DNA from: Diplocarpon mali
Taxonomy: Eukaryota > Ascomycota > Leotiomycetes > Helotiales > Drepanopezizaceae
Reading direction: 5' to 3'
Assembly: GCA_024741835.1 (NCBI GenBank)
Contig: JAENRP010000461.1
Coordinates: forward strand, 9,006-27,954
DNA length: 18,949 nucleotides
The position numbers were made by a program, and so were the translations under genes. The notes beneath the pieces were generated by a model. It was not told the origin of the DNA and searched no databases. It worked only from the letters and a program-made list of their open reading frames with translations. Positions 1 to 18,949 of the stretch are shown one piece after another; within the stretch, counting starts at the first letter, position 1, and each line of letters begins with the position of its first letter.

Positions 1-427
1 AACTCTTCTTTTTTTTCCTTTTACCTTTAATAATAATATAGTCTTAGTTTAGGCCTTTTAATATATTAGTTTTCTTGCACTTAAGGTTTACTAGTAATTG
101 ATATACTATTGCCTTAACCTATATTGTTTTATATTCTTTGCTAATAGTAGTAAGGGCTATTACTTTTGTTATTTAGGATATATATAAAGACCTAAGATAA
201 ATAGGTCTTATAATATATATCATATGATCGGCGCAGGCCGGTAGGAGGATAAAAGGGCCACCTTCTATATATAGAGATAGCGCGTATTGCTATAATACTA
301 AATATACCCTATACTTAGGACTTATTCTTAATATCTTATCTAAGAGAGCCCGCTTGTGGTGCTTCCTCCTCTTGTTTTTAGGTCTTCCCTTGGGCCTATT
401 CTTGTGTTGTCTCCCCTCAGTTTTATA
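1..427 (+). repeat. 5' LTR of the gypsy element (left end cut by window)
   Basis: Bases 1-427 align without gaps to 15089-15515. I counted 29 differences by eye, 26 of them transitions, in both directions, as expected when RIP hits the two copies independently. The LTR would promote and terminate transcription of the element. Similarity stops after 427, where the leader of gag begins. The shared end reads TTTTATA, which could be a RIP-altered TTTTACA (canonical CA end lost). I could not identify a convincing tRNA primer-binding site in 428-450. Up to about 20 more LTR bases may lie left of the window. Confidence 0.92.
266..273 (+). promoter_or_regulatory. TATA-like box in the 5' LTR
   Basis: A TATATATA run lies in the LTR after a GC-richer patch (AGGCCGGTAGG region near 235) and keeps its place in the 3' LTR at 15354-15361. 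The position suits a retrotransposon promoter, but the sequence is so rich in TA that the match could be chance. This is an inference only. Confidence 0.25.
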
Positions 428-752
428 GTAATACTAAGCGCAAACTCTAATTGGAAGTGTCTCTTTAGAATCCTTAGAAATCCGAATCTGATAATTCAGC
501 CGCCTTAGCTAGATAGAACTTTAAAAATTACCTTAGAATCGTCTCTAAAGACCCCTTTATTCTAAGGACTAATAGGAATTGGCTTAAAGGCTAAGAAGAA
601 TCTTAAATATAAACCTTATCTTAGAAATTAGTCCTTAATTAAGTAAACCTTATCTTATTACAATTAGTTGCAACGCTCTTATTAGCTATTTAGCACCTAC
701 TTAGAATCTTTTAGCAAACTCGGATTAAACTTTTAATAGAATCCGGAATTCT

Positions 753-775
753 ACTCCTAGGCCTAGCCTATAAGT
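753..775 (+). repeat. Palindromic repeat copy 1
   Basis: It matches the 23-bp consensus with 6 transitions and 1 transversion (hand count). It lies in the N-terminal part of the gag relic, but in a different codon phase from most copies: the gag frame is 1 mod 3 and this copy starts at 0 mod 3. The core reads AGGCCTAGCCT. Confidence 0.7.
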
Positions 776-1761
776 AAGAGGATAAAAAGATATCTTTAAA
801 TAACTTAAGACTACTACTTACTTTTTTAATATTAATATTAGAAAATACTAAAAATAATAATAATTTTAAACTTTTTATTAACCCTTTATTTAAATCTTTT
901 TAAACTTGTCCTAATTACTTTAAGATTGATTTAGATTCTAAACGTTCTTTAAACCCTTTTGAATTTCGAAGTACTCCTTTTAGCAATCAATCTCGCAATA
1001 TTAAAGCTTTCCCTTTACCCCTTATAGATTCTATTAACTTAAACGGTTAGTATAAAATGATAATAGCCGCATTTAAGGCTATTACTAGTCACTTTCCCCT
1101 CCTTAGTTCCTTTAGCGCTCCTTACTTTATAGGTGCTGATATTACTGATTTCCTTAAGCAATATAAGGAAACTTATTACGATTTTAGTATTATATAAAAG
1201 GATATGATTTCTCGACTTCCTTACTATTATAATCATATAAGTAAGGATATTATTAAATCCCTCTTCGAATGGAAAACTTATAGTTTATAAGAACTCCTTA
1301 TTAAAGCCCTCAAATCTGAATTCCGCGAATTTGACAGATAGTAGATTTGCAATACCCTAGCTTTCTTAAAGGAATTTGTTCTAATCACTTATACTCCTAA
1401 GGGACTTAAGAACTATTATCGGACTTTTACTTATATATCGAATACCTTAATTAGCTAGAAAATACTTAGCGAAGTTAAAAGAGGCCGCCTTTTCTTACTT
1501 AAATTACCTATTAGCCTTTAAAATAAGATCATTAAGCATTTTAAGATCAATAAGCAAGACCCTATAACCTTTGCCTTATTTAAGGAATTCTCAGCCTTTA
1601 CTTTAAAATCAGATCTTAGTAAGAGAACTATTAATACTATAGAGCAGGAAAAAGCCCCTATTCCCTTTTATACTAAAGACCTTAAGAGCCTGGTCCAAGA
1701 ATACTCGAAAGCTCTAGAAGTTATAGAAAAGGCGAAGAAGAACCTAGTGGTTATACCTTTC

Positions 1762-1784
1762 ACTCGCGGGCCCGACCTAGGAGT
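1762..1784 (+). repeat. Palindromic repeat copy 2
   Basis: It matches the consensus with 3 transitions and 1 transversion and is one of the best-kept copies (ACTCGCGGGCCC, then GACCTAGGAGT). In the gag frame it reads TRGPDLGV. It lies between the capsid-like part and the Cys cluster of Gag. Confidence 0.85.
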
Positions 1785-3839
1785 AAGATCTAACCCTAGA
1801 ATTAAGGAACTTAAGACCCAATTTGCAGAACTCTAAATCTAAAGCTTAAAAACTAGGATTAATAATCTCTTATAGGAAAAATAGCATATTCCTTAATTTA
1901 ATAATAGATAAAACTCAGCTATTATAAGCCAACTTAATAGTTCCTATTACTAGATTCCTACTTCTTATTATTCGGAATAACTAGCTAATATAAGAATGCA
2001 ATAGCTGGCTAAAGAAGGAGAAATTAATCCTAACTAGCACTCTGCTAATATTAATACTATAGGGTATTAAGGGAATGGCAATAGAAGACGACTAACCTGC
2101 AACTTTTGCAATAATAAAGAACTTAACTGCGCTTAATATAAGTATCGCAACGATTGCCCTCTTTTCTATCGTTTTATTAATACTAAGGTTATATATATTA
2201 ATAAGTATAGGATGCTTTGCATTAAAGATCCTAGGCCAAAAGCTATCCCTATTAAAAAGTACTAGAATCACTTATAGTTATAGACTATTTGAATAATAAT
2301 ATATAGTATAAAATAGGACGAGAATTTAGTCGAACAATAGCATATTATAAATATAAATATTAAAATTCCAACTTATATATATACTAGTCCAATTAGCAAC
2401 TTACTTAAGGGAGTTCTTAAGGACCTAGCTTCTAATTAAATAGCTATAGAAGTTAGAGGCATCTCTATCTTAGGATAGGTTAATAATAATATAACTACTA
2501 ATATTAATGCTACTTCTGTATTTAGAAACCCTTAGAATACTCGGCGTCCTTCTAAATCTACCACTCTTCTAATACTAATAAAACCAGCCAAAGTCTAGAA
2601 ATCAATACGTGTAACTTAGGAATCTTAATATAGAGTCCAAACGCTAAAAGACACTTAATAATCTAGAACTGCAATAGATAAAGATAAAGCCAATATAGCA
2701 GATAAATTGATTAAAGATATAATAGATAAAGATGGCTTTAAGCTTAAAGATTAAGAAGTCGAAGTTATTATATAGACCCTTGACCTTAAGCGAAAGAGAT
2801 AGATATTAAAATAGGAAAAATTCGTCGATAAATACGCTAGTTTAATTGCAATAGAGAAAGCTATAAAGAATATTATAGCTTAGTAAATTAACCTTACGTT
2901 TAAAGACTTATTTAGTTTAATTGGACGCTTTAATAAAGTATTAAGAAAGCATATCTTAGTTGCCTTTAAAGATTTGAATAATAATAAAGAAATGGAAATT
3001 ATAATGCAAAAGAACTTTAAAAAGCACTTAGTCTTAATTAAATATCTTTAGATTATAGAAAACGAAAGAACCTAAAGGTATTATAATATTATAGTAATAG
3101 CTTTAATATCTTAGAATATTAATCGAAATTATTTAGTAGTTGTAATAAAAAGCCCTATTATTATTTATTTAATAGAAGAATTAGTTAAAGCAAAGGCTTT
3201 GATCGATTGTAGTTTAAAAGTTAATACAATAATTAGAAAAGTAGTAGAAATAGCTCGATTGACAATTGTTAGCAATCGACTCCTTATTTATTCGACTATC
3301 TTTAGATTGAAATACAATTTTAATAGATAGGTGAAAAATGTAAAGGTTAGAGTTAGAGGAATTATTAATTATACTAACTTTCTAATAATAGAGAATTCTT
3401 TAAATAACATTCTTTTAAGAATACCCTTTATTTTAAAATCTTAGCTAATATTTAACTATTCTAAAGATAGTCTTATAAAAGCTAATCTTTAAAATATAGA
3501 TCGATTTTTAAAAGGATAAATAGTTATTACAAAAGATATAGCCGAATTCTAAAATAAGGTTTTAAGAAACGATTAGCTAGCATAGGGGCTAGGCTTAATG
3601 CTAGTAAAGGAAGGCACTTAGCGAGGAGTTATAGTAAAAGAAAGGTAAGTTTGCCGATTTTAAATAATAGCGATTTAATTTGCAATCTTAAACTAGGAGT
3701 CAAATCTAGAATTTTGAAAATTAGTACAATTAGCGTTTTATTAGCTTAATAATTAAGAAAAAAGAAAAATAAAGTAGAAAAGAGAGTTCGTTTTATAAAT
3801 TTTAATAATTTATTAATCATTTTAAAAAACCTAAAAACC

Positions 3840-3862
3840 ACTTATAAGCTAGACTTGCAAGT
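3840..3862 (+). repeat. Palindromic repeat copy 3
   Basis: It matches with 9 transitions and 1 transversion. In the local frame (0 mod 3) it reads TYKLDLQV, the RIP-altered form of TRGPGLRV. It sits between protease and reverse transcriptase and helps to show that frame 0 is the real one there. Confidence 0.7.
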
Positions 3863-5807
3863 GAAAAATAATAAAATTACTAATAATACTTCCATTTATA
3901 CACTTTAAATTAATAATTTAAAAAATCTTTTATTTATTTTTAAAAAGGAAAATTCGAACCATTTTATAAGATTTGATAAAAAAGGAAAGAAGTAGAGAAG
4001 TATAGTATTAGCTAATATTCGAACTATATATAAAAGTAAGGCTAATAAAGTACAACTAGTAGATTAGGGAATCTTTAATAGCTTAAAGCCTAAAGGACTA
4101 AACGATTAGTTTAAATAAAATAAGAAGCTTCGACCTTTAAAGCTAAGTAGCAAATTCGATAAGTTTATTATAAGTAGATTTTCTAATAAACCTATTAGAT
4201 ATCGGCTAATAAAAGAACATTTTAATATATTAAAAATTGAAGATGACTTAATAGAATAAGAATGCGAACTACTTTATAAAACCTTAATAAATTAGGAGGA
4301 CGCTTTAGCTTTTGACTAAATAGAACTTAGCTAGATTTAAAAAGAGATCACGCCTTATATTAAGATTAAGATAATACCTTATAAAGCCTAGTAAGAGAAA
4401 ACATTTAAGGTCTTTAAAGCTCTTTAAGAAAAGGTAATTGAAATATTAAAAGATAGGCTAAGGCAAGGAGTTCTCGAGTTCTATAATAGCCTTTATAAGA
4501 ATAAATGGTTCCTAGTTGCTAAGAAAGAGAAGGGAACTTATAGACTAATAATAGTAGTAGTAGAAATGAACCGAGTAACTATTAGAGATACTAACATTCC
4601 TTTGAATATAGATGAGTTCTTAAATGAATTCGTAGGATTAACCCGTAGCTCTCTTATTAACTCTCGTCTTTAAATATAACCAATTTATTCTTAATATTAA
4701 ATCGAGAGATATAATAGCAATTCAAACCCCTCTTAGGCTACTTCAAATAATAAGATTACCTTAAGGGGCTATAAATTCGATTACTTAATTTATTTAAATA
4801 ATCTATAAGATATTAATAGATTATATACCTAATATTATACTCCCTTATATAGACGATATAAGAGTAAAAGGATTAAGATCATTCTATAACTATAAAGAAG
4901 TTCTTCTTAATATATAACGATTTATAATAGAATATATTTAGAACCTAGACTAGGTGCTTATACAATTCGAAAGGGTAAAAGCAATAGTTAATCCAAAGTT
5001 ATAATACTATCTTCTATTAATGGAAATTATTAGTTTTATTACTAATTCTAATGGCTAAAGTCCTTAGAAGGCTAAAGTACTTAAAATCGACAAATAGAAG
5101 AGGTATGATAATATAGCAAAAGCTTGCGCGTTTATTAGTATTATAATATACTATTGCATTTAAATTAAGGATTTTATTAAAAAGGCAGCGCTTATTTACG
5201 CCTTATTTTAGAAAGGGGCTGAGTTTTAATAGGAGGAACCTTAAATAAAGGCTATAAAACAATTAAAGCAAGCGTTACTTAAAGCGCTATATCTGATTAA
5301 AATAGACTATAGAGCTAACGCTAGGCTAATTATACTAATAGTTAATATAAGCTTAATCAAATAGGGTACTATCTTTTAATAAGCTAATAGCTAATAGAAA
5401 AGACATTTAGCTCACTTTGAAAGTAGTCTTTAGAATCTAGTAAAGATAAAGTATAATACTATTAAATAGGAATGCAAAGGAGCTTTAAAAGTAATGAAAA
5501 AGATGAGAAGCGACCTTTATAGCATTTACTTCATCTTTAAAACTAATACTAAAGTACTAGTAGAATAATTAAATAGAGCTGCAAGCGACTTACCTAAAGC
5601 CTTACTAATGAAATGGATTATTTAAATAAGATTAATAGACTTTAAAGTCAAATATATTCTAAGAATGAAAAATACTACTGTAAACGGCCTTTTAAGAAGA
5701 ACTTGCCCCTACTCTTCTAATTTAATTAAAGAAGACGAAATAGATATTAATAAGTAGGTAGAGAATAAAGTTGGTTATCTATTAATATATTACCTTAAAG
5801 GGACTCG

Positions 5808-5830
5808 ACTCTTAAGCCTGGTCTACGAGT
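5808..5830 (+). repeat. Palindromic repeat copy 4
   Basis: It matches with 5 transitions and 1 transversion (core AAGCCTGGTCTACGAGT). It lies between RNase H and integrase. Its codon phase is shifted relative to the pol frame, so the peptide differs (LLSLVYEL), yet the frame continues through it. Confidence 0.75.
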
Positions 5831-7242
5831 TAAATAAGAGAATTTTATCACCTGACTACTTAAGTGACTTTAAAGAAATTGCGAAATTTTTAATTATATT
5901 TAAATAATTAAAGATAGTTGCTCTTAAGGATTTTTAGAAATTTAAAGTTAAAGCTCTAATTTATCTAATATAAAGAAGACGATTGTTTAAAAGGAGCGAT
6001 AACTCATTTCTTATATAACTCTACTTAAATAATGAAAAACTAAGGGCTAAGGCTATTTAGGATATTTATAAGGAAACTGGCTACTAAGGAGCTAAGTCTA
6101 CCTACCACCGACTCTTAAGGAAATTCTTTTAGAAGGGTTCTTTTAAGGACTGCAAAGCCTTTATAAAAAGTTGCGTCCCTTATTAAAAATAAAAACCTAA
6201 TTATAAAGAGAATCTCCTATTCCTAACCTGGCTATTAGGCCTTTTCTATAAAGTCAGTCTTAATATTATATAAGTACTAATAATTGAAAATAGGATTATA
6301 TATTTTATTCTAATAAAGGAAGACCTATTAGGATAGCCTAAAGGATAACTATTAAGATCTGCTAACTTTGAATCTATTATAAAGTTCCTTTAAGAAGATA
6401 TAGTCTATTGCTATGGACTTTTTAGCAAACTAACTATTAATAGAGGCCTTGAAAATAAAGGAGTAGTTAAAGCTTTTTTATAAAAATATAATATTAAATA
6501 GGTTCAAATCTTAGCGTATAACTCAAAAGCTAATAGAGTAGTAGAGCGAAGATATTGCAATATTCTTAATAGGCTATTTAAAGTTACTTGCAAAGGATTT
6601 AAGAATTAGATAAAACACTTTTATAGAATACTCTTTGCTTATCGAATGATAATTTATAAACCGACTAGAGTTATACTATTTTTCCTTATCTATAGTAGAG
6701 AGGCATAGCTCCCTTTTGAATCCTAATAGCCTATTTAAAGATTGTTCAACTATAGTCAAATTCAGAACCGTTCCAATTTACTTATAATAAGATACTAATA
6801 ACTTAAGCTTTAAAATATAAATAAAAAGGAAATCATTTTATAAAAGAAATAATATTAGGAAAAAGCTAAGGAAGTATAAGCTGCTTTTAAAGTACTTAAA
6901 ATATACCTTATTTAAAAAGATAATCTTATCCTAGTCTATAATATTATAAGAAGTATTAATATATTAGCAGATACTAAACTTGACTATTAATAGCTTAGTC
7001 TATTTAAGGTTAAGTCTAAGTAGAAAAAAAAGGGATACTATTCTCTTTAGGAACTTGATAGAATTAATATTAAAGGAACCTTTGTAGCTAATCGACTAAA
7101 GCGCTTTTATTAATATAACTAGACTTTATTCCTTTTAAAAGACAAATTAGAAATTGATATAACCTTCGAATCTTTTGCAAGAACTAATAGCGATATAAGC
7201 AATTTTAAACCTTTAGATAAAGACTAAGATTTTTCTAACTTG

Positions 7243-7265
7243 ACTTATAAGCTGGTCCTATAAGT
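7243..7265 (+). repeat. Palindromic repeat copy 5
   Basis: It matches with 9 transitions and 2 transversions. In frame it reads TYKLVL*V near the C-terminus of pol. Confidence 0.65.
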
Positions 7266-7359
7266 AAAGAATATTAAAATACTTAATTAATTGCAACCTT
7301 AAGTTATTATTCTTAAAATATCTAAAGAATATAGATAGGAATATTAAATGATTTCCTAG

Positions 7360-7680
7360 CCTATTAATTATCTTACCTTCCTTTAATTCTTATTTTTACA
7401 TTTTTAGTAAGGTCGCTTCCTTTATTATTTAAGATATAGATCTTTTAGGATTACTTTAAATTCTTGCTTACTTTAACTTATTTTATATTCTTAATATTAG
7501 CCTTTAATTATAGCATTCCTATTACTTTCTTTAAATAATAAATAAAAAGTCCAATTTCCTTAATATATATATAGCAAACCTATTATAGCTTATATGCCCT
7601 TTTAATTCTTATATCCTATTGAACTTTCTTATTTATACTCCTTATCTTTTATAAGTAATATACCTTTAAAGAACTTATAA
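7360..7680. other. Pyrimidine-rich spacer between pol and ORF A
   Basis: About 320 bases rich in T and C on the + strand, with no frame that continues pol or ORF A. Because ORF A has its own start, the spacer might hold an internal promoter, an intron or a translation-reinitiation region, but I see no clear signal for any of these. Confidence 0.4.
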
Positions 7681-8505
7681 ATGGTTTTATCTATAGCAAT
7701 AGGGGATAAATAAGTACTAGTTATAAACTTCTTTTAAAATAGCAGAGCTATTGTATTATTAGAGAACTTTAAATCGACTTACGCAGCCTTAGGAGATATA
7801 GAGTAATAAAAACTCCTTTTAGCTTATGCGAATGCTATTAATAACCTTTTAACTTAAGTAGCCCTTGGAATTCTCTAATTTGACAACTTCTTAACTAAAG
7901 AATTAAGACTAAAGGGAATCTTTAGAGAGGAATTCTTAGCTAATGTAGATTAATATATGACCTTGGCCGACACTTTCAAAATAGATTAAGATAAAAGGGA
8001 AGAATCTATTCGATAATTAAATAATTTAGCTATTGATAAAAGAGGACTCCTATTTTGTTTGCGCTTTTTAACAAATATTGATTCTAATAATAGAAGGCGA
8101 GTATTATTAAAAATTCTTAAGGAAAATACACTTATAGCCAGAGCTATATAGATTCTTAATTTCTTTATTATTTAAGAAGGAGTAGTAAAATTCTGAGGCA
8201 ATCGAATTCGCAGTTGCAAATTTATAAGCTTATCTAATATAGTACTTATAGCAGCTGATAAAGCTATAAAAAGATCAAATTGGGCTGTAGATATTACCTT
8301 ACCTAATAGTACTATTATTAATATGCTAAGGCTCTGCGCTTCTGCTTATAGTTTACTTATTTTAAAAGAGAATTGGACTCTTATGCTAAGGTTTAGATAA
8401 GATTTCTTTAATAATAAAGAAGGGAATTGGTTATTTATAATCAAGCCTACTTTAAAATTTGCTTCTTAACCTAAAGATATAATAAGTGCTAAACTATATA
8501 ATTTA

Positions 8506-8528
8506 ACTCGCAGTCCTAAATTAGAAGT
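8506..8528 (+). repeat. Palindromic repeat copy 6 (ORF A)
   Basis: A more degraded copy: 6 transitions and 3 transversions. In the ORF A frame it reads TRSPKLEV. It lines up with the copy at 12569 in ORF B. Confidence 0.5.
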
Positions 8529-9891
8529 TAGAAATGAGAATTTTAAAACTAGACCTAACTTGCCTCTTATTAAAATGATTTTAGAAACCGCTATTAAATA
8601 AATTGCCTAAACGCTTAGCGCAGCCTCTTTAGAATTTTCAGAATCTTTAAAGGACTTTCCTTTAGCTAAACGACCTATTTTAACTTAACTTTTAAAAAGG
8701 ATAGATTATTTAATAGCTACCTTAGCTAATTTGCAATTTAAAATCAAAGGATTGCGCGCTCGCTTAAACTCCTTCTTTAATAACTTAAAGGAGCTAGTTC
8801 TTAAATTCTTTATATCTATATACAACTATTTTAAAAATGATAATATAAGGAAAGACCCTATTCCTACTGCTCTAAAGACGATTAAAAGAGCTATTAGATA
8901 GATTTAATAGCTTATTTTAAATAAGTTCGCCCTTATAGATATTATTTAATTCTTTAATAATTATAAAAGTTAAGAACCTAGTCTTTTAAATGCTAAGCGA
9001 GACTATTTTATCTTATAAGAAAGAGAACGCAAAGAAGAATCTATTAATTAGGACATTTGTAATTATAGTAATATGCTTTAATCGGTTATTCTTAATCTTA
9101 AGCTTAGAGAATGATATAATATTTAGGTGTCCTTTATAATAAAGACTCGCTTTCGATAGTATCTTCCTAATATAGAAATCGAAGGGAGAAGACTTTGCGA
9201 CCTTTATATTTACTCTCTTTCGGTTTACTATAATCTCAATTATAAAGGATTTAATATTAATAAAACTATTAAATACCTTGAACTTCTTTATATAATAGAA
9301 GATATTGATCTTTTTTTAATCTACCTTAATAATCAGTTCTTTATCTCTTTAAAGATATGCAAATCTAACTTATTAATAATAGAGGCATCTTTAAGTGTTA
9401 TAAAATTCAAGGCTAATCCCAAAGCCTTAAAGGCGTTAGAGCCGATTGAATAGAATAATTCTTTCTTTTTAATATTATTAAGTAATAAATAGCAAAAGGA
9501 AATAGAAGAAGAAGGGTCAATTGTGATGCTTAAACCCTTTAGATACCGCTTCCTAACTAATAATTTTACTACTAATAATAGTACTTTTATAAGTATATTC
9601 CTCTCTATTATAAGATAAGAAGTAGAGATGTACCTTTATTACTTCTACCTTATAAATAACGCAACCTTTATACCTTCTTATTTTCTTTATAATATAATAT
9701 TTAGTCTTACTTAATAAGTCCTTTGGATGCATTATAGACTCTACCTCTTAGCTATAATAGCGAAAAGTAAAAGAGCCTATTAGCTTACGGCCTACTTTAA
9801 ACCTCCCTAATTGATTGGCCTTAGTCTTTATAATTAAGTTGTTTTAATAAAAAGGGATGCAAGTACTATTAATAAAGAAATTCCGATTTTC

Positions 9892-9914
9892 ACTTGCGGT
9901 CCTAGCTCGCGAGT
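9892..9914 (+). repeat. Palindromic repeat copy 7 (ORF A)
   Basis: It matches with 4 transitions and 1 transversion and ends in the intact arm CTCGCGAGT. In frame it reads TCGPSSRVN. It lines up with the copy at 13799 in ORF B (TPGLSS*VN). Confidence 0.85.
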
Positions 9915-10776
9915 CAATTTTATTAGAAAGTAAGTCTTAGATTATTAAATCCTATTAATTAGATAAGGGCTATCTTTTAGAAGCCTTAATAGGTAGGTCG
10001 GCTCTTAATCGAATATAAAACTCACTTTATTTATAAAGAAGATAAGTCGATAGACTTCCTAGGTACTTGGTTCAAAATCTTAGCTAGCTTGTATAATTAT
10101 AAAAATAAAGTAAAAAGAGATCTTATAACCTATTACTAATAATAGTAACCCTATTATAATAATAATAAAATAAGGGCACCTTTTTAAAATGCGCTTAAAC
10201 AAACTTTATAAAATTGGTAGCTTTATAGCCTTTTGCAATAACTATATAGCTATTTGTGATAAAAATACCTTGGAAAATAAGATTCGAATCTCTGATCTTA
10301 TCTTTTTAGTTTTTACTTTAAAGTAACCTCTAATGCCTTAATAAATTAATATAAGTAGAACTACTATACCTTTTAAAGCAGCTTTTTATCTTAAGAACTG
10401 CGGCAGCCTCTTTAAAGCTATTATTAATTAACGCTTTTAGATAGATCCTTTTATTATAACTGAAGTATAAGAGTTATTTCTTTTTAATAAGGACAAATTG
10501 AAAATCCACTTTGCAAAATATAATTAAAAACTCTTTAACGCCCTTATTAAGGCTTAGATAAACGTTATAAATACTAAGTCGCTTTTTTATAGACTTAAGT
10601 CTTAAGGATAATATAATAAAGTAAATACTATCTAAGAGCTTAATATATTAATTAATAAAGGTATTATTATAAGAAAATTCGGAAAAGAGACAAATTAAGA
10701 CACTAGTATAATATTAGACCCTGATTTAGGAACTAATTCCTTATTTTTACCCTTAAGCTTAGAAACGCTAAGACTG

Positions 10777-10799
10777 ACTCGCGAGCCTGGCCTATAAGT
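10777..10799 (+). repeat. Palindromic repeat copy 8 (ORF A)
   Basis: It matches with only 4 transitions (ACTCGCGAGCCTGGCCT, then ATAAGT). In frame it reads TREPGL*V. It lies near the C-terminus of ORF A and lines up with the copy at 14621 in ORF B. Confidence 0.87.
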
Positions 10800-10935
10800 G
10801 AGGTTAGACTTAGCTAGCTTAAGTCTATAAGATGGTTCAGATAAACCTTAGTCATTTAAATTAGAGAAAACGCCAAGAGGTAAGAACTAATGCAAAAGAA
10901 GAAGACTTTAAAGTGATAATAGAATTGATAATTGA

Positions 10936-11509
10936 GTTAAGCAATCTAAAGAATCTAGCTTATTACCCTTAAAGAAGACTATTTAAAGGACTTATGAATT
11001 TGAGTTAAATCTTTTTAAGATTATCTACTTCTTATATACTAGTACCTTTTTATTCTCTATTTATTATTCTATTTTATATATATTCTTTATACTACTTTAT
11101 TTTTTATATAATCTATCCTTTAATTATTTCCTTTATATGCAATTTTCTAATGCTTACCTTTGAAATATTATCCTTACCTTTAAAGAATTATCATTTACCA
11201 ATTATAAGTCCTTATATATATTATACCTTACTTTTATTCCTACTTCCAGCCTCTTTATACCTACTTTTCCTTTATACACTAGTACGACTTTAAACTCTAT
11301 AAATAAGCCTCTTCCTACACTACAATTTTACTTTTTTTACTTCTCTTTTCAACCCTACCAGACCTATAATATTAGTACTACTACTATTATCTTTCTATTA
11401 TTAATCTTTTTAAGTATAAGCCTATTATATTATTAATCTTTTTTAAATAATTATCTCTTTATTTAAAGCTACCTCTTTTACTAAATAATTTATTATAGCA
11501 CCACTAACT
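10936..11509. other. AT- and pyrimidine-rich spacer between ORF A and ORF B
   Basis: About 570 bases without a coherent frame. The sequence is strongly T/C-biased on the + strand, like the spacer before ORF A. The first 50 bases could be a read-through tail of ORF A. I see no RNA gene, palindromic repeat or clear promoter here. Confidence 0.4.
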
Positions 11510-12382
11510 ATAAGTAAAAAGGCCATACTTAAGAAGAATATATCGGTTGTTACTTTAGGTAGCAAGTCCTTAAGTACTATTAATAATGAACTAATATTAG
11601 AGGGAGGGTTCTTATAAGATAGTAAGTCATTAAGATCATTAGAAGATATAGTAAGTACCTATAGAACGTTAGGTAAGATTAAATAGTAGGTATTCCTGAA
11701 TTCATCTATTAAGGTGCTTAATTATAGAATTTCTACTATTAAGGAAGGATTCTTAGGTTTTGATGATTTCTTAGATAAGGAACTCTAAGGCAAAGGTATT
11801 AATTATAAAAAGTTTTTATAAGAGTATTAAGGGTATACTAATTCGATTGACTTGTTTTAGAAGAACTGAGATAAGAAAAATAAGTATATAAAAAGACTGA
11901 TATAGTTTATAAGCAGAATATATAGAATGCTCTTTTAAAGCCACTTTATAAATGATATTATTATAAACAATGCTCTGCGGGGACTTAGCAAGATTTTTAA
12001 GATGTATTAACTAGTGGCTAAAGCTATATAGGTATTGAATTATTTCACTATTTAAGAAGGTATAAAGAAGTTGCAAGGAAATAGTACGCAAAGTAGAAAA
12101 TTTATTAGATTCTTAAGCACTATTATATATTCTACTATTTAAACTATAAAGGATAGCCCCGCCTAGTATAATAATCTTGCACTCTTTAACCAAACTATTC
12201 TAAATACGCTCGGCCTGCAATAGTTATAATATAGTCTACTTATTATAAAAGAAAAGATAATATATCTAGCTAAATATATTATAAACTACTTTAATAATAA
12301 AATGGAAAGATAGGAATTTATTATACCTACCGCCTTAAAGCTACTACTACTTGCGGTAGGATTAATAGATAAGCGCGATTTA

Positions 12383-12405
12383 ACTTATAGGCCTAGCCTA
12401 TAGGT
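12383..12405 (+). repeat. Palindromic repeat copy 9 (ORF B)
   Basis: It matches with 9 transitions and no transversion. In frame it reads TYRPSL*V. I see no clear counterpart at the same place in ORF A. Confidence 0.8.
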
Positions 12406-12568
12406 AGAATTAGCATATAATAAAGAAGTCTATAAGTATAAAGTGCCTATAATATTAAAAATACAAACTACTAACTATTATAACCTTAAAGTATTAGATT
12501 TAAATGTATTTGAATTACTATCCTTAGAAATGCTTAGAATACCTTATATACTAGTAGTAAAGAAACTG

Positions 12569-12591
12569 GCTCGCGGGCCTGGCCTATAGGT
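12569..12591 (+). repeat. Palindromic repeat copy 10 (ORF B)
   Basis: It matches with 5 transitions and no transversion (GCTCGCGGGCCTGGCCT, then ATAGGT). In frame it reads ARGPGL*V. It lies 186 bases after copy 9, the closest spacing in the window. Confidence 0.87.
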
Positions 12592-13798
12592 TAAAATATA
12601 TAATAATATAGATTTAAAAGATAAGCTGATAGATAAAGTAGATAGTCCTATTACTAATATATTAGAAATTTTTAATAATACTAAGAAGGATATATCTAAT
12701 ATTATATAGACCTTTCCTAAAGATTTATAAAAGTTTATTTTAAAATTCTATAAGTCTATAATAAAGCGTTTAAAGAAGGAAAACTAAGGAGATATTTTAT
12801 TAATATAAGAGGTAATAGTAAGAGCTATTAAATAGATTATAAAACTGCAATAAGACGAATTTACCTTAGATAATATTATATAGTTCTTTATCAATTATAA
12901 GAAATCAAAGGGCGATTACTATATACTTAAGGAGAAGCCTAAAGATACTATAATAATAATTTCTATAGAATATTATTAAGTCCCCTTTAATATTAAGATA
13001 ATACTGTAGTATAGTAATAGATTTAAAGTTATAGTAATATTAGAAATAAAGACTCGCTTAAGTAAATTTGTAATAGGGATATTTAGAGACTTCTATTTTA
13101 AGAAATTTTATACCCTTTATAAATAATAATATGCACTATACTGCGGACTAGCATTAATAGGCATTACTAATAAAGAGGTATTATCTAATATCTATAAATT
13201 TTATACTACTCCTAATTTAAAACTATTCTTATTATACCTTGGAAACTATGCAATTATGGCTACTAGTAATAGAATGGCTAATTAGGTTAAGAAAGATATA
13301 TTATTAGGTTTCTTTAAGTTCCGAGTAGCACTTAAGGCCTTTAAATTATTCTATAATATCGCTTAGACCCTTACTTAATATAAGATTATACTAACTAATA
13401 ATACCTTAATATCGCTTTATAGTAAAGGCTTCTTAAATATGCCTAAGCTGCTTAGCTATACCTTTTTAAGTGCTATGTGTATATATAGTCCTGGCTATTA
13501 TAAAAAGAATTCATTTTTAATATTGGTATAAGAGGAATTGGAAATATACTAATATCATTTTCGGAATTCTAATAAAAAACTTTCGCCCCCTTTTATATTT
13601 CTTTATAATATAATATATAGCCTAATATAATAGACTTTGAAAATATACTATAGGCTGTATCTTAGTGCGCTATTGACTTATTATAAGTCTTTATATAAGT
13701 TGGTAATATATCTTAAGCCTATATAGTTTATAGGTATTAACTACTATTTGAGAATTATTACTATTAAGATTAATGCTAACTTGCGATTTATTAAATCG

Positions 13799-13821
13799 AC
13801 TCCTGGGCTTAGCTCGTAGGT
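13799..13821 (+). repeat. Palindromic repeat copy 11 (ORF B)
   Basis: It matches with 8 transitions and 1 transversion. In frame it reads TPGLSS*VN, at the place matching copy 7 in ORF A. Confidence 0.72.
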
Positions 13822-14620
13822 CAATTCCTCTAATAATAGAACTATTGACTATTATATAATTCCTATTATAAAATAATCGATTAGAGAATTTGCTATATAG
13901 GAAAAGTCTTATAAGTCATTTATACTTATATCCTATTATTTTAAGAACTCTTAATAGATCTTATTAAATCTAGCGTAAAGTGCTATATAATAAAAAGAGC
14001 TAAATACTAAGGAGAAAATTGTCTTAAAGGAATACGTTTCAAATAATACTACTCTATTCTTAGTATTTATAAGATAAGGTACATTTATTAATCTCGATTT
14101 AAAATAGGAATTTAAAAAGGGCGGCTTTTTGACTATTAGTAATAATTATATAGAAGTTATTAGTAATGATTTACTTAAGAATAGCATTAACCTAGAAGAT
14201 TTTCTTATTAACTTACTTAATATAAAGAGATTAAGTATAGTAAGATAGGGTGCAGCTAGAGAATCTTTTGCAAAGTTCTATATAACCCTTAGGATAATAA
14301 AAGGCAGTCTATTATTAGAGGCCCTTATAGGTAGAAGATTATAGAATAACCTATTAGTAGTAATAGCTATAAAGGAGTTGTTCTTAAAGGATATAGCATA
14401 ACTGATAATATATTTAAAGAAATATAAGCAAGAACTTTTTAACAATTTTACTAATACTTAAAAGCTAGTGCAATAACTAGAACTATAGTTATATAGTAAT
14501 AAATCCTAGGCTAAGACGAAAGGCATTAATAATAATATTAAGGCTAATAATATGATTAATAAGACAATTCTTCTTAAGAAGTATAGTATTAAAAAGCCTT
14601 ATATAAAAACCCTTAATACG

Positions 14621-14643
14621 ACTCCTAGGCCCGGCCTGCGACT
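14621..14643 (+). repeat. Palindromic repeat copy 12 (ORF B)
   Basis: It matches with 3 transitions and 2 transversions (ACTCCTAGGCCCGGCCTG). In the still-open stretch it reads TPRPGLRLN without a stop, so it shows the peptide nearly intact. It matches copy 8 in ORF A. Confidence 0.83.
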
Positions 14644-14731
14644 TAATCTAAAGAAAGGCAAGGCTAAGGAAGTCGTAGTTATAGAATCTCCTGCTATATC
14701 CCCCTTAGTAGCAGATGACTCTTTAGAGAAT

Positions 14732-14766
14732 GATAATAATAATAAAGAGGATAATAATAATAATAT
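14732..14766 (+). repeat. AAT/GAT trinucleotide tract encoding an Asn/Asp-rich tail of ORF B
   Basis: Runs of AAT with occasional GAT give DNNNKEDNNNN in the ORF B frame. Since RIP turns TGAT into TAAT, the ancestral tract was probably GAT repeats coding a poly-Asp acidic stretch. It is also a simple-sequence repeat that could slip. The ancestral reading is inference. Confidence 0.5.
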
Positions 14767-14968
14767 AGTAATATAAGTCTCCCTTTCTATTAGTAGAAGC
14801 TATCAAACTATACTAGTATCTTTATAAAATACTAAAGCTCTTATAATACTAAGACTAGACTCTTCTAATATTAATAGCAAACTATTAAAAAGAAGTAGGC
14901 GCTTTATAAAGAAAGTATTATCTAATAATAGTTCTCCTTATCTCTTGAAAAGATCTAAGGAAAATTGA

Positions 14969-15088
14969 CATTTAGGTTAATACTATTTTTAATTATTTTT
15001 ACGACTTTATAGCTTATTTGTTTATTTTGCTAGTTTCGTTTTCTAACTTATAGGCCCAGCCTATAGGTGAAAAGTATAAAAAAAAAAA
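14969..15088 (+). other. 3' untranslated region with A-rich tract before the 3' LTR
   Basis: This short stretch between the ORF B stop and the aligned LTR holds one palindrome (15046-15068) and then an A-rich purine run ending in twelve A (15079-15090), in the place where the polypurine tract that primes plus-strand synthesis should be. The exact LTR start could be anywhere from 15068 (a TG) to 15089, because the matching left edge is cut off by the window. Confidence 0.5.
15046..15068 (+). repeat. Palindromic repeat copy 13, non-coding, next to the 3' LTR
   Basis: It matches with 10 transitions and no transversion (ACTTATAGGCCCAGCCT, then ATAGGT). It lies after the ORF B stop and just before the A-rich tract, so the repeat is not limited to coding DNA. 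Confidence 0.8.
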
Positions 15089-15515
15089 AACTCTTCTTTT
15101 TTTTCCTTTTACCTTTAATAATAATATAGCCTTAGTTTAGGCCTTTTAATATATTAGTTTTCTTACACTTAAGGTTTGCTAGTAATTGATATACTATTAC
15201 CTTGACCTATATTATTTTATATTCTTTATTAATAGTAGTAAGGGCTATTACTTTTATTATTTAAAATATATATAAAGACCTAAGATAGATAGGTCTTATA
15301 ATATATATCATATAATTGGCGTAGGCCGGTAAGAGGATAAAAGGGCCACCTTTTATATATAAAGATAGCGCGTATCGCTATAGTACTGAATATACCCTAT
15401 TATTAGGACTTGTTCCTAATATCTTATCTAGGAGAGCCCGCTTATGGTGCTTCCTCCTCTTGTTTTTAGGTCTTCCCTTAGGCCTATTCTTGTGTTGTCT
15501 CCCCTCTGTTTTATA
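15089..15515 (+). repeat. 3' LTR of the gypsy element
   Basis: It aligns base for base with 1-427 (offset 15088). It keeps the TATA-like run at 15354-15361 and the CT-rich end (CTTCCTCCTCTTG, then CTCCCCT). The differences from the 5' copy are mostly transitions in both directions. Directly after it, CTAAGAGATATGGAC begins the copia reading frame; the base group CTAAG could be the right half of a target-site duplication, but its partner would be outside the window. Confidence 0.92.
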
Positions 15516-17007
15516 CTAAGAGATATGGACCGACTAGGCGTACAATATGACAACCTATGCAATATACTTATTTAAGGCAAGAATATCATACCTATAGTCC
15601 GCCGATTTAGCTACCCGTAGCTACTATTAAACACCAAGGAATCAATTGTTCAATTCTTAGCAGAACCTAAGCTACGCCGTCTATACCGCAGATTTAGCTA
15701 TATCTCTATCGCAAAGCTAGCCAAGGTACTAGATAGAGCTAGTAAAGACTATAATCTCCCTATATTATAATAAATAGAGGAGTTTTATTACCATTATTAG
15801 ATGCATAGCAAATCCCCTAGCAGATTCAAGTTCTCTATTAAAGAGGATCATTCTTTCAATTATTCAATTATTATTAACATCTTCTACCTTAATAGCAAGC
15901 CAGTTCTATATATTATTAATAGTACTATAAGCTTTTAAGCAGGTCGATTTATAAAAGATATAATAGCACATTATACTTAGGATTTACTATAAGCTTATTA
16001 AATTGATACTTACATTAGACCACTTAATTTAATCGTTTACGACGCTAGCAAGAACTTTGCTTCTGCAGAGTTCCGCTAACTTACTAAGACGTTCAATTGC
16101 AAAATCAAAGAAGTACCTATGGAAGCTTATAATAGTGTCGGCAAGGTTGAATGATACTATATAGCTATTCGCCGAGCTTATAAGATCATCTCTGCAGAGC
16201 TCTTAAATGCATTCCCAGCTATAAAGCTTCAAATAGCGTTTAAGACAATCAACAACTCTATTGGACTAAATAGCTTGATTCCTATATTGCTAGTTTTTAA
16301 AGCCTACCTACGATTAATTAACCTTAGTCTACCGGCACCTTCTATAATACAATAAGCTTCTGCTATTCGCAAAGCTATAGATGAATTACGCTTACTCTAA
16401 GCTCGCAGACAAGTCTCTAACGCATTGGCTATGCGCAATAGCCCTAATACAACTTTAACTCTTGATCTACTATTACAATCAAAAGTACGCGTATAAAGAG
16501 AGAAGGTCGATAATTGGAATAGATAGTATAGCCTATATATACTAGTAGCAACTAACGGCGAAGAGTACTTTATAGAGATCGGAGGCAGAGTTGTTAAATT
16601 TCGAAGTATAGTAGTGAAACCATACAAAGAGGAACTCTCTAATTTGGCTCCAGAACCCGGTTCTTAAGCCGAGCCACAACTGGACGAAGAAGCCTTTCTA
16701 ACTTATAAAGAGAAATTCGATTGCAACCTAGCGGTTAGACTACGTAAAGAGCGAGTTATTATAACTCTAAGCGAGCCATTCCAGGCCTTCTAACTCTAAG
16801 AAGTGGAAGGTTTAATCGCTTAAGGTGTTATGAAGTTTATATAATTCGACTAAAAGCTCTATTCCAAAGTACGCATATTCAATTCTCGATTTATCAATAA
16901 GGTTAAAGATAAGATAATAGCTCTATTTGAGAAGTCGCGTCTTATTATTCAAGTATATATAGATTAAGGAAAAGAAGTTATTTTAACCCAATCTCTATTG
17001 AGATAGG
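15516..17007 (+). pseudogene. Ty1/copia pol fragment: pre-integrase, integrase, start of RT
   Basis: The frame at 0 mod 3 reads as copia Pol from the first codons after the gypsy LTR. A pre-integrase-like part (MDRLGVQYDNL from 15525) leads to FYYHY*MH, a damaged HHCC finger (the Cys codons at 15786 and 15795 now read Tyr). The integrase core follows: first catalytic Asp changed to Asn (15876), second kept in VYDASKNF (16041), Glu kept in GKVE (16149), where the next Arg has become TGA. RT begins with LSEPFQAF and KSRLIIQVY, then breaks off near 17000. More than twenty stops occur, mostly TAA/TAG at Gln/Trp positions. The sequence looks more GC-rich than the gypsy element. The 5' half of this copia should lie left of the window, on the other side of the gypsy insertion. 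Confidence 0.86.
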
Positions 17008-17588: not shown

Positions 17589-18949
17589 ATGGTAATAGCT
17601 TCTGATTCTAATCGAAATACTAGACCTAAAGACCTTTAACTCTCTTAAAAGAATTAGCAATAATAGTTCGATGATTTAAAGCTTTACTTTAAGAGTAAAG
17701 GCATTGAAATAGCAATTCGAAAGACACTTATTAAATATATAAGAATAGCCCTTTATACTCCCTTTACTAATTTGTCTACTTCCACTTTAATAGCTAATAT
17801 AACTGCTAAGGATTTGCTAGATATATTAAATAAGCTTAGCCTAAGAGCCTTAGTAGATAATAATTAAGAATCCTAAAGGCAGATTTTAAATATAGAAAAG
17901 GAGAAGGAGTATAAGCTGGCCTTAGTTAAATATAAGCTTAAGATTAATAGAGGTTTAAGCGATAAAGACTGAGATTTTATTTAAGTTTATAATAATGCAA
18001 AGATAAGATAGGATACTTTAAAGGTAAAATACTTTTAAATAATTGCCTTTAATACTTAGCATCTACTATAGCAGATTACTTTATTTTAATATAAAAAAGA
18101 TAAAGATAATAAGAATATAAATATAAATATAAATTCTACTTAATCTATATTATATAAAGTAAGAAGGAAAGTAAAAGCTATAGATCCTAAGATAGCTATA
18201 ACTTTTAAGGAAACTTAGCTTTTTAGTTTCCTACTTAATAGCCTCCCTTTTAAGTTTGCTATTATAAAATAATCTCTTCTTATCTAACTTAACCTTAAGA
18301 TTTATAAGAAGATCGACCTCCTTTAAACTATTAAGTAAGACCTTAAAGGATGCTTTAAATTAGTAAATACCGCGTTATAAAGCAACGATAAGCTTAAGAA
18401 GAGGAAGGAGCGTAAGATAAGCCCTTAAGCTTATTAGAGATACTACTTCTATAATAATACTTATAATATTACTAATTGTAAAGTTAGAAGGTAATTAATT
18501 AATATAATCGCTAGCTTTAATATTAAGAAGCAATTGAAGTAGAAGTTAAGAAGTAAATTGCCCTTATCCTATTAAAGGCCGCAACTACTAAGGAAAGGCA
18601 AAGGAAAAGGCTATTTAGCTAAAACTTTAGCAAATACCTTTAATAATAATAGTAAGTTATTTAAACTTAAATCCACTTTTAATAATTTAAATGATAATTA
18701 TAATAAAGATGCTTATATTTTAAAAGCCGATCTTTATAAGATCTTTAAATCTGATTAGTATAGTAATACTAGTTATATAGTATATATAACTAATAAATCC
18801 TACCTATTTAAAGGCCTATTTATTAAAATAAAAAGGCGCTTTATTAAAGTTAGTAGTAAAAAGTTGTATATAGACTTAATAGATATAGTAAAGATAAATA
18901 TTACTAGCATTTCTTTCCTTTTATAAAATATTCTCCTTATACCTAGCTT
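17589..18949 (+). pseudogene. Copia gag and start of protease, relic, partial
   Basis: The frame at 0 mod 3 starts with ATG at 17589 (MVIASDSNRNTRPKDL) and stays coherent to the window edge with TAA/TAG stops at Gln-like codons. It has the lysine-rich look of copia Gag. A nucleocapsid-like knuckle lies at 18441-18479 (YYFYNNTYNITNCK), where Tyr codons probably replace Cys and His, and the spacing is one residue short. The copia protease site follows at about 18756-18800 (NTSYIVYITNKSYLF, matching the usual DTGAS-HMT-SLF pattern with Asp to Asn and Gly to Ser), then the RRFIKV and KLYIDLI stretch typical of the same domain. I chose the start because the ATG follows the non-coding leader and the protein is readable from there. 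The second copia may or may not be the same family as the one at 15516. Confidence 0.75.

Follow-up and report, generated by a model that had tools for sequence, protein, structure and literature searches.

A short palindromic word of DNA recurs along gypsy A, as the gypsy element of the window is called here, and is carried by at least three families of long terminal repeat (LTR) retrotransposons, probably four, in the genome of the fungus Diplocarpon mali. The window, a stretch of 18,949 nucleotides, corresponds to positions 9006-27954 of contig JAENRP010000461.1 (C461:9006-27954) in a genome of 49.4 Mb and 676 contigs; L and C numbers denote other loci and contigs of this genome. The explanation to which we give an even chance is that several LTR retrotransposons received, by copying of DNA, a short unit with dyad symmetry that was then kept by constraint. 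An earlier note, made from the window alone, had confined the palindromes to one giant gypsy element, a restriction that the presence of the word in further families removes.

A palindrome shared by gypsy and Copia elements

The refined consensus of the 23 bp core is ACTCSCGGKCCNGGMCCGSGAGT, obtained from 32 contexts (24 without tandem neighbours), and the dyad symmetry extends to about 27 bp, with a pyrimidine at position -2 and a purine at +2 in 32/32 contexts, including non-coding ones. The arms are one base apart, with no internal sequence between terminal inverted repeats. In the window, the consensus of the earlier note, with transitions tolerated, gave 13 matches (mean 0.175 and largest 1 in 40 Markov shuffles), and the refined consensus gave 14 sites in gypsy A (mean 0.24 and largest 2 in 50 shuffles) and none between 15500 and 18949. 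The family is thus real, and the thirteen sites first reported were essentially right, save that they lacked the decayed palindromes at 3678 and 8506, which were first recognised through better-preserved relatives. One of the 13 matches of the first scan, that at 4628, is probably due to chance: it agrees with the consensus at 10 bases, shows 2 transversions and is non-palindromic in the three copies where its counterpart was seen.

Decay by transitions, already proposed in that note, was borne out: 13 sites pooled against 12 other loci, with two sites entered 9 and 1 bases off, gave 0.187 transitions vs 0.009 transversions per compared base. Because this bias is accompanied by dinucleotide indices, set against the usual thresholds, of 1.40 (TpA/ApT) and 0.57 ((CpA+TpG)/(ApC+GpT)) in the AT-rich window, the decay is ascribed to repeat-induced point mutation (RIP). 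In the reading with the fewest stops, ten of the eleven gypsy A sites with a readable frame share one phase, 5808 has a different one, and 753, 7243 and 15046 show no clear frame; 8506 was entered in this reading as 8505, and 753 was read from one copy only. The previous description, in which the frame continued through twelve sites within coding relics, ten in one phase and 753 and 5808 in another, therefore holds at the readable sites and for 5808, whereas a coding position was not confirmed for all twelve and no phase could be given to 753.

The symmetry is imperfect at positions 5/19, where the 32 RIP-collapsed contexts comprise C..C 12, G..G 12, G..C 8 and C..G 0, and the 24 left after removal of eight tandem copies comprise C..C 10, G..G 6, G..C 8 and C..G 0. 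An asymmetric unit inserted in both orientations, together with a symmetric subtype, would give such a pattern. Covariation was considered as proof of a hairpin and set aside: the 5/19 pair is matched in 8/32 contexts vs 17 expected, with no covariation, and the 9/15 pair is only weakly associated (21/32 matched, p 0.15; 20/24 without tandem copies, p 0.007, post hoc). The folding energies of five 23-mers as RNA, between -10.6 and -16.8 kcal/mol (z from -1.45 to -3.76), are no decisive sign of a hairpin, and Rfam at gathering thresholds gave no match in 36 kb.

Across the genome, ACTCGCRGGCCNGGCCYGCGAGT occurs at 1317 sites within 3 mismatches and the refined exact pattern at 58, with 0 sites for the reversed-pattern control in both cases; no exact site was found in a prokaryotic genome collection or in IMG/VR. 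Fifty of the 58 exact copies were listed and 45 were seen in context, sites with 1-3 mismatches being classified only in the loci read, which amount to about 0.6% of the genome and were mostly fetched via the palindrome itself. All 45 sit in LTR retrotransposons: 28 in Copia, 10 in gypsy B, 6 in gypsy A and one (L051) in what we read, from its sequence, as a probable second Copia. The other five listed sites (C132:36153, C172:13155, C231:54397, C235:33464 and C314:5877) are each separated from a Copia match by about 1.5-1.6 kb, the distance expected of a site in the Copia 3' untranslated region (UTR). No copy was seen outside LTR elements or in cellular genes in this small sample, nor any palindrome in the LTR stretches checked. 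The elements are not mitochondrial by context and are presumably nuclear, lying on contigs up to 560 kb. The motif seems to mark some element families, not all, because two RVT_1-bearing stretches, L021 6600-10000 (read as gypsy-like) and L022 1-6100, lack it in the part read; among eight 3-kb stretches chosen regardless of the motif, seven were without it and the eighth (L032) is gypsy B.

The surrounding protein differs between the gypsy A, gypsy B and Copia sites. Palindromes of gypsy A lie before and in gag, upstream of the reverse transcriptase (RT) region (two), on either side of the integrase, in accessory open reading frames (ORFs) and shortly before the 3' LTR (Table 1). Those of gypsy B are found in gag, upstream of RT and in a stretch that we interpret as the RNase H - integrase linker (L018 6516, L123); the domains supported by tools are RVT_1 and Integrase_H2C2 on C48, where the RVT_1 match (C48:171099-171581) follows palindrome units at 170370 and 170415. 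Copia, the only family for which a clear Pfam domain was obtained (SH3_retrovirus), carries one or two palindromes in the linker between gag and protease (PR), one to four between the integrase end marked by that domain and RT, and a single one near the LTR, within the 3' UTR. Coding sites of gypsy B and Copia with an open sense frame are in phase 0, and other or antisense frames also span the sites of L039, L042 396, L049 and L052. The palindrome at L049 608 is cut at its centre and the Copia copy L101 is interrupted immediately ahead of its palindrome, two cases only, which look as though palindrome sites were prone to breakage. The named protein nearest to one Copia stretch belongs to Diplocarpon coronariae (82% over 89 residues), whose published assemblies measure 50-54 Mb with 25-32% LTR elements (PMC11527701).

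Inheritance and conservation of the palindromes

Within gypsy A, every copy that covers a site carries the palindrome there. Eight to ten other copies cover the sites from 5808 to 14621, four cover 15046 and two cover 3678 and 3840; two copies and two diverged relatives cover 1762, and only diverged relatives cover 753. Most sites keep one allele across copies, and sites next to each other tend to have the same allele (p 0.003 for 5 adjacent pairs, in a test that omits 5808 and counts 3840 and 7243 as neighbours). Exceptions are 15046, where one copy of six differs, and 1762, where the diverged relatives differ. The clearest exception is 5808, where eight copies show four combinations at positions 5 and 9 and the 60 flank columns are free of transversions, a hint that the left arm was converted or replaced.

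Some copies form tandem repeats within coding sequence, spaced by 45-72 bp, in one frame and in varying number, whereas the sites of gypsy A are single and dispersed. Among 20 of 173 gypsy B and 20 of 219 Copia protein matches, chosen for varied lengths with queries that include the linker and are thus not fully blind, gypsy B has 1, 2, 3 and 4 units of 45 bp in 3, 12, 4 and 1 loci, and Copia has 1, 2 and 3 units in 2, 16 and 2 loci and never 0. Of the two single-unit Copia loci, L090 has a damaged second unit and L080 is single where most have two; four Copia units are present in L035. In the Copia gag-PR linker of L115 (C152:26314), the 83 bases read contain one palindrome; in other copies this linker has two, separated by 48-66 bp. 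On the minus strand, L013 7178-7548 contains six decayed palindromes that share an open frame in an element damaged by RIP, with 48-bp steps between the last four; this array possibly belongs to the second Copia, an assignment weaker still than that of L051. Of 20 Copia 3' UTRs fetched by a palindrome-free DNA query, 19 carry the palindrome and the remaining one (L101) is interrupted there.

Outside this genome, protein database searches returned 1, 3 and 0 relatives, and none carries the peptide; P0002 and P0003 alone fully test the linker, P0001 ending before it and P0004 covering it partly. Distant Copia relatives (two JGI contigs and one from Podosphaera aphanis) lack the motif in the same linker, which the Podosphaera aphanis relative covers only in part and which does not align cleanly in these distant relatives. 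Since they lack it, the palindrome was probably gained in this lineage.

Conservation is clearest in ORF3 of gypsy A, where transversion-variable columns number 1/92 in palindromes vs 163/1063 in flanks (p = 1.4e-5), and 0/28 vs 102/400 at third codon positions. Over the 32 contexts, transversions are absent from positions 3, 6, 18 and 21, all of them third positions of codons in phase 0, although the code allows them, while 9, 12 and 15 do vary in this way; the peptide alone therefore does not explain the pattern. The ORF3 conservation favours a present use of the palindromes.

Table 1. Terminal repeats and palindromes of gypsy A, in positions of the window
Feature	Position	Strand	Remarks
5' LTR	1..433	+	End approximate; first 300 nt recur at 93% in 15089-15388; without palindrome
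Palindrome between LTR and gag	753..775	+	Also in diverged relatives L005 and L021; no clear frame
Palindrome in gag	1762..1784	+	Phase 0; L015 and L021 carry a different allele
Palindrome upstream of RT region, strongly decayed	3678..3700	+	Phase 0; better kept in L008 and L014
Palindrome upstream of RT region	3840..3862	+	Phase 0
Palindrome upstream of integrase, RNase H - integrase linker	5808..5830	+	Phase unlike that of other sites; four left-arm alleles in eight copies
Palindrome downstream of integrase region	7243..7265	+	Frame unclear
Palindrome in second ORF region	8506..8528	+	Phase 0; open frame L017:6903-7331:-
Palindrome	9892..9914	+	Phase 0 (weak); in all ten other aligned copies
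Palindrome	10777..10799	+	Phase 0; in all ten other aligned copies
Palindrome in ORF3	12383..12405	+	Phase 0; conserved while flanks diverge
Palindrome in ORF3	12569..12591	+	Phase 0; conserved while flanks diverge
Palindrome in ORF3	13799..13821	+	Phase 0; conserved while flanks diverge
Palindrome in ORF3	14621..14643	+	Phase 0; conserved while flanks diverge
Palindrome 20 bp before 3' LTR	15046..15068	+	No clear frame, probably non-coding; Copia similar
3' LTR	15089..15519	+	End approximate; without palindrome

The domain of gypsy A supported by tools is Integrase_H2C2, matched on C12 and C1, and further domain names are readings of broken translations; the counterpart of 5808 in L012 lies 200 bp before the Pfam match C12:234080-234247. 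From such readings, 1762 would lie upstream of a zinc-knuckle-like stretch, and 3678 and 3840 upstream of the RT region. The element is unusually long (15 kb), with extra ORF regions downstream of pol, the last of which (window 11400-14900) evolves much faster than the others: it has 3-8% transversions per base, compared with less than 1% in most of the interior's first 9.5 kb. Diverged relatives (L015 4604-6897, L021 5484-6911 and L005) share parts of the 5' region of gypsy A and are possibly a shorter form; they carry the 753 and/or 1762 palindromes and further ones, near an LTR-like stretch in L015. At C102:133108, C200:6014 and C498:5858, Integrase_H2C2 lies in stop-free frames of 964-1024 residues, unlike the RIP-damaged copies. 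The Copia of L013 is inserted in a repeat that is uninterrupted in the window; its flanks (L013 921-1186 and 6765-7011) overlap by 6 bases at window 18703-18708, which looks like a target duplication.

Proposed copying and constraint, with rival explanations

It is from the shared sequence, its places and both orientations, the inheritance within families, the tandem variation and the ORF3 conservation that we infer an act of copying and a function. An independent origin of the word at some twenty places in different elements is most unlikely. That DNA and not a peptide was copied, as the earlier note had also held, follows from the occurrence of the same word in different retrotransposons, in both orientations, at non-coding sites and, once, in another frame (5808). 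Under this explanation, 23 bp core units would have been copied in both orientations into at least three, probably four, LTR-retrotransposon families of one fungus, surviving where an in-frame insert is harmless, namely in inter-domain linkers, gag, accessory ORFs and 5' or 3' untranslated parts. After arrival, each copy would have been inherited with its host element, some expanding into tandem coding repeats, and would now be kept by nucleotide-level constraint, most likely because the elements, or else a factor of the host, make use of the dyad as a DNA site or RNA hairpin. Our guess for the copying route is that reverse transcription involved template switching or gap repair; the palindrome would then be expected in LTR elements, the only ones in which it was seen.

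Several results weigh against copying followed by constraint. No empty site was found in any gypsy A copy covering a site, in the 20 gypsy B and 20 Copia protein-matched loci or in the 19 unbroken Copia 3' UTRs, so that copying would have preceded the spread of the present families, or palindrome-free elements did not last. The target-site duplication sought at the borders did not appear either, direct repeats showing no excess there (p 0.08-0.64 for k = 3, 4, 5, 6 and 8). The earlier idea of a fungal analogue of the Rickettsia palindromic elements consequently stands as regards a palindrome family read in frame, whereas its mobility gained no support; of the two outcomes named in that note as contrary to mobility, the lack of empty sites was observed, and a peptide conserved as a normal protein repeat was not. 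Most loci were palindrome-fetched. As little of the genome was read, host genes may carry copies as well. Outside ORF3, variable columns number 4/138 in palindromes vs 46/1783 in flanks (p = 0.78), divergence there being too low to tell, and 54/243 non-palindrome ORF3 windows with G+C >=0.40 also have <=1 variable column, the ORF3 palindromes being G+C-richer still (0.53-0.64). The copies behind these counts are related sequences and not independent events. Finally, positions 5/19 form a C-C or G-G mismatch in 24/32 contexts, which partly contradicts the pairing over 11 bases previously described and means that a perfect hairpin is not the feature kept.

The main rival, possible but on the unlikely side in our judgement, is purely cis-acting: the dyad would be a site needed by LTR retrotransposons, either a binding site or an RNA hairpin, without mobility of its own and with a role in transcription, silencing escape, RNA dimerisation or packaging; after rare acquisition by recombination, selection would have multiplied and kept it. 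Such a site would fit the ORF3 conservation, silent positions included, the constancy of the -2 pyrimidine and +2 purine in coding and non-coding contexts alike, the copies near the 3' LTR in gypsy A and Copia and near an LTR-like stretch in L015 (4997), and the presence of the palindrome in every copy sampled. The dyad, as read off the consensus, also contains CGG-N7-CCG, a half-site pair of the type bound by fungal Zn2Cys6 proteins, which makes it a candidate binding site. The reported dimerisation of Ty3 RNA via a short palindrome, a model said to extend to Ty1 and HIV-1 (PMC11381356), points in the same direction. However, some 14 sites would be needed in one element; the dimerisation palindromes known so far are located at the 5' end of the RNA; the RVT_1-bearing stretches of L021 and L022 lack the motif in the part read; and the 5/19 mismatch speaks against a plain hairpin.

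The remaining explanations are less probable. Selection could have acted on a Pro-Gly-rich linker peptide (TPGPGPRV / TRGPGPGV) as a coding minisatellite, with the palindrome as a by-product of tandem duplication and gene conversion, in line with the shared phase 0 of 10/11 readable gypsy A sites and of the open-frame gypsy B and Copia sites, and with the varying tandem number in gypsy B (1-4) and Copia (1-3). We consider this improbable in view of the non-coding copies (Copia 3' UTR, 15046), the other phase at 5808, the transversion-free positions 3, 6, 18 and 21, and the homologous linkers elsewhere without the peptide; as the sole unit the peptide is largely refuted by the non-coding copies, and it could remain a secondary force. 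Very improbable, in spite of the two orientations and the inverted-repeat form, is a remnant of a DNA transposon resembling a miniature inverted-repeat transposable element, with 11-bp inverted ends and its inside lost, or a set of palindromic footprints: 296 of 299 half-sites in the 0.29 Mb read are paired back to back, two of the three unpaired ones representing one gypsy B place, and neither target-site duplications nor copies outside LTR elements were seen. Chance or an artefact of extreme base composition, conceivable in an AT-rich and RIP-scrambled window, can be dismissed with near certainty and is refuted by shuffle and reversed-pattern controls close to zero and by sites common to aligned copies.

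Taking the copying explanation further, and only tentatively, the palindrome may be a nuclear, dyad-symmetric hyperparasite of 23-27 bp, a minimal mobile word of DNA. It would live in LTR retrotransposons and pass from one superfamily to another, gypsy or Copia, where in either orientation the reading frame runs through it and where it would be maintained and shuffled. If true, a nuclear in-frame family in different LTR retrotransposons would constitute a new layer of parasitism; otherwise, a shared control site would have been acquired by several retrotransposons of one host. Either reading informs on sequence exchange between retrotransposons or on the recognition of these elements by the host fungus, and the motif is exact enough to be searched for in any fungal genome.

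Comparison with known palindromic elements

Bacteria and organelles are known to harbour short mobile words of palindromic form. A literature search among open-licence papers found no description of a nuclear family of this kind, and the main text of PMC11527701 and of PMC12158172 contains no mention of 'palindrom'. Sponge mitochondrial hairpin-forming elements and the palindromes of Volvox organelles are short and spread through their genomes, those of Volvox favouring organelle introns, which are themselves selfish DNA (PMC2670323, PMC2800124). Unlike the present family, they are organellar and mostly intergenic or intronic, and the nuclear copies in Volvox were judged to be inert transfers. 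The GC42 clusters of yeast mitochondria, 42 nt long, are likewise a short, GC-rich and constrained palindromic family with variant subtypes in AT-rich surroundings (PMC4478555). They differ in being mitochondrial, in a copy number that varies between strains, and in showing both empty sites and a putative target-site duplication (PMC4478555), whereas empty sites and target duplications were both sought here and not found.

The dimerisation palindromes of Ty3 (and Ty1) resemble the present word in being palindromes in LTR-retrotransposon RNA, and one gypsy A site (753) lies near the 5' end, as expected for dimerisation sites. Those listed for Ty3, however, are six bases long and located at the RNA 5' end (PMC11381356), in contrast to a long word that occurs in several families and over the whole element. 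The Rickettsia palindromic elements, of about 150 bp, are bacterial and lie in frame within unrelated cellular protein genes (PMC10969869). The likeness consists in a palindromic repeat placed in frame inside unrelated protein genes, here the ORFs of gypsy and Copia, and read through; the difference is that the present units measure 23-27 bp, belong to a eukaryote and have all been seen in LTR retrotransposons.

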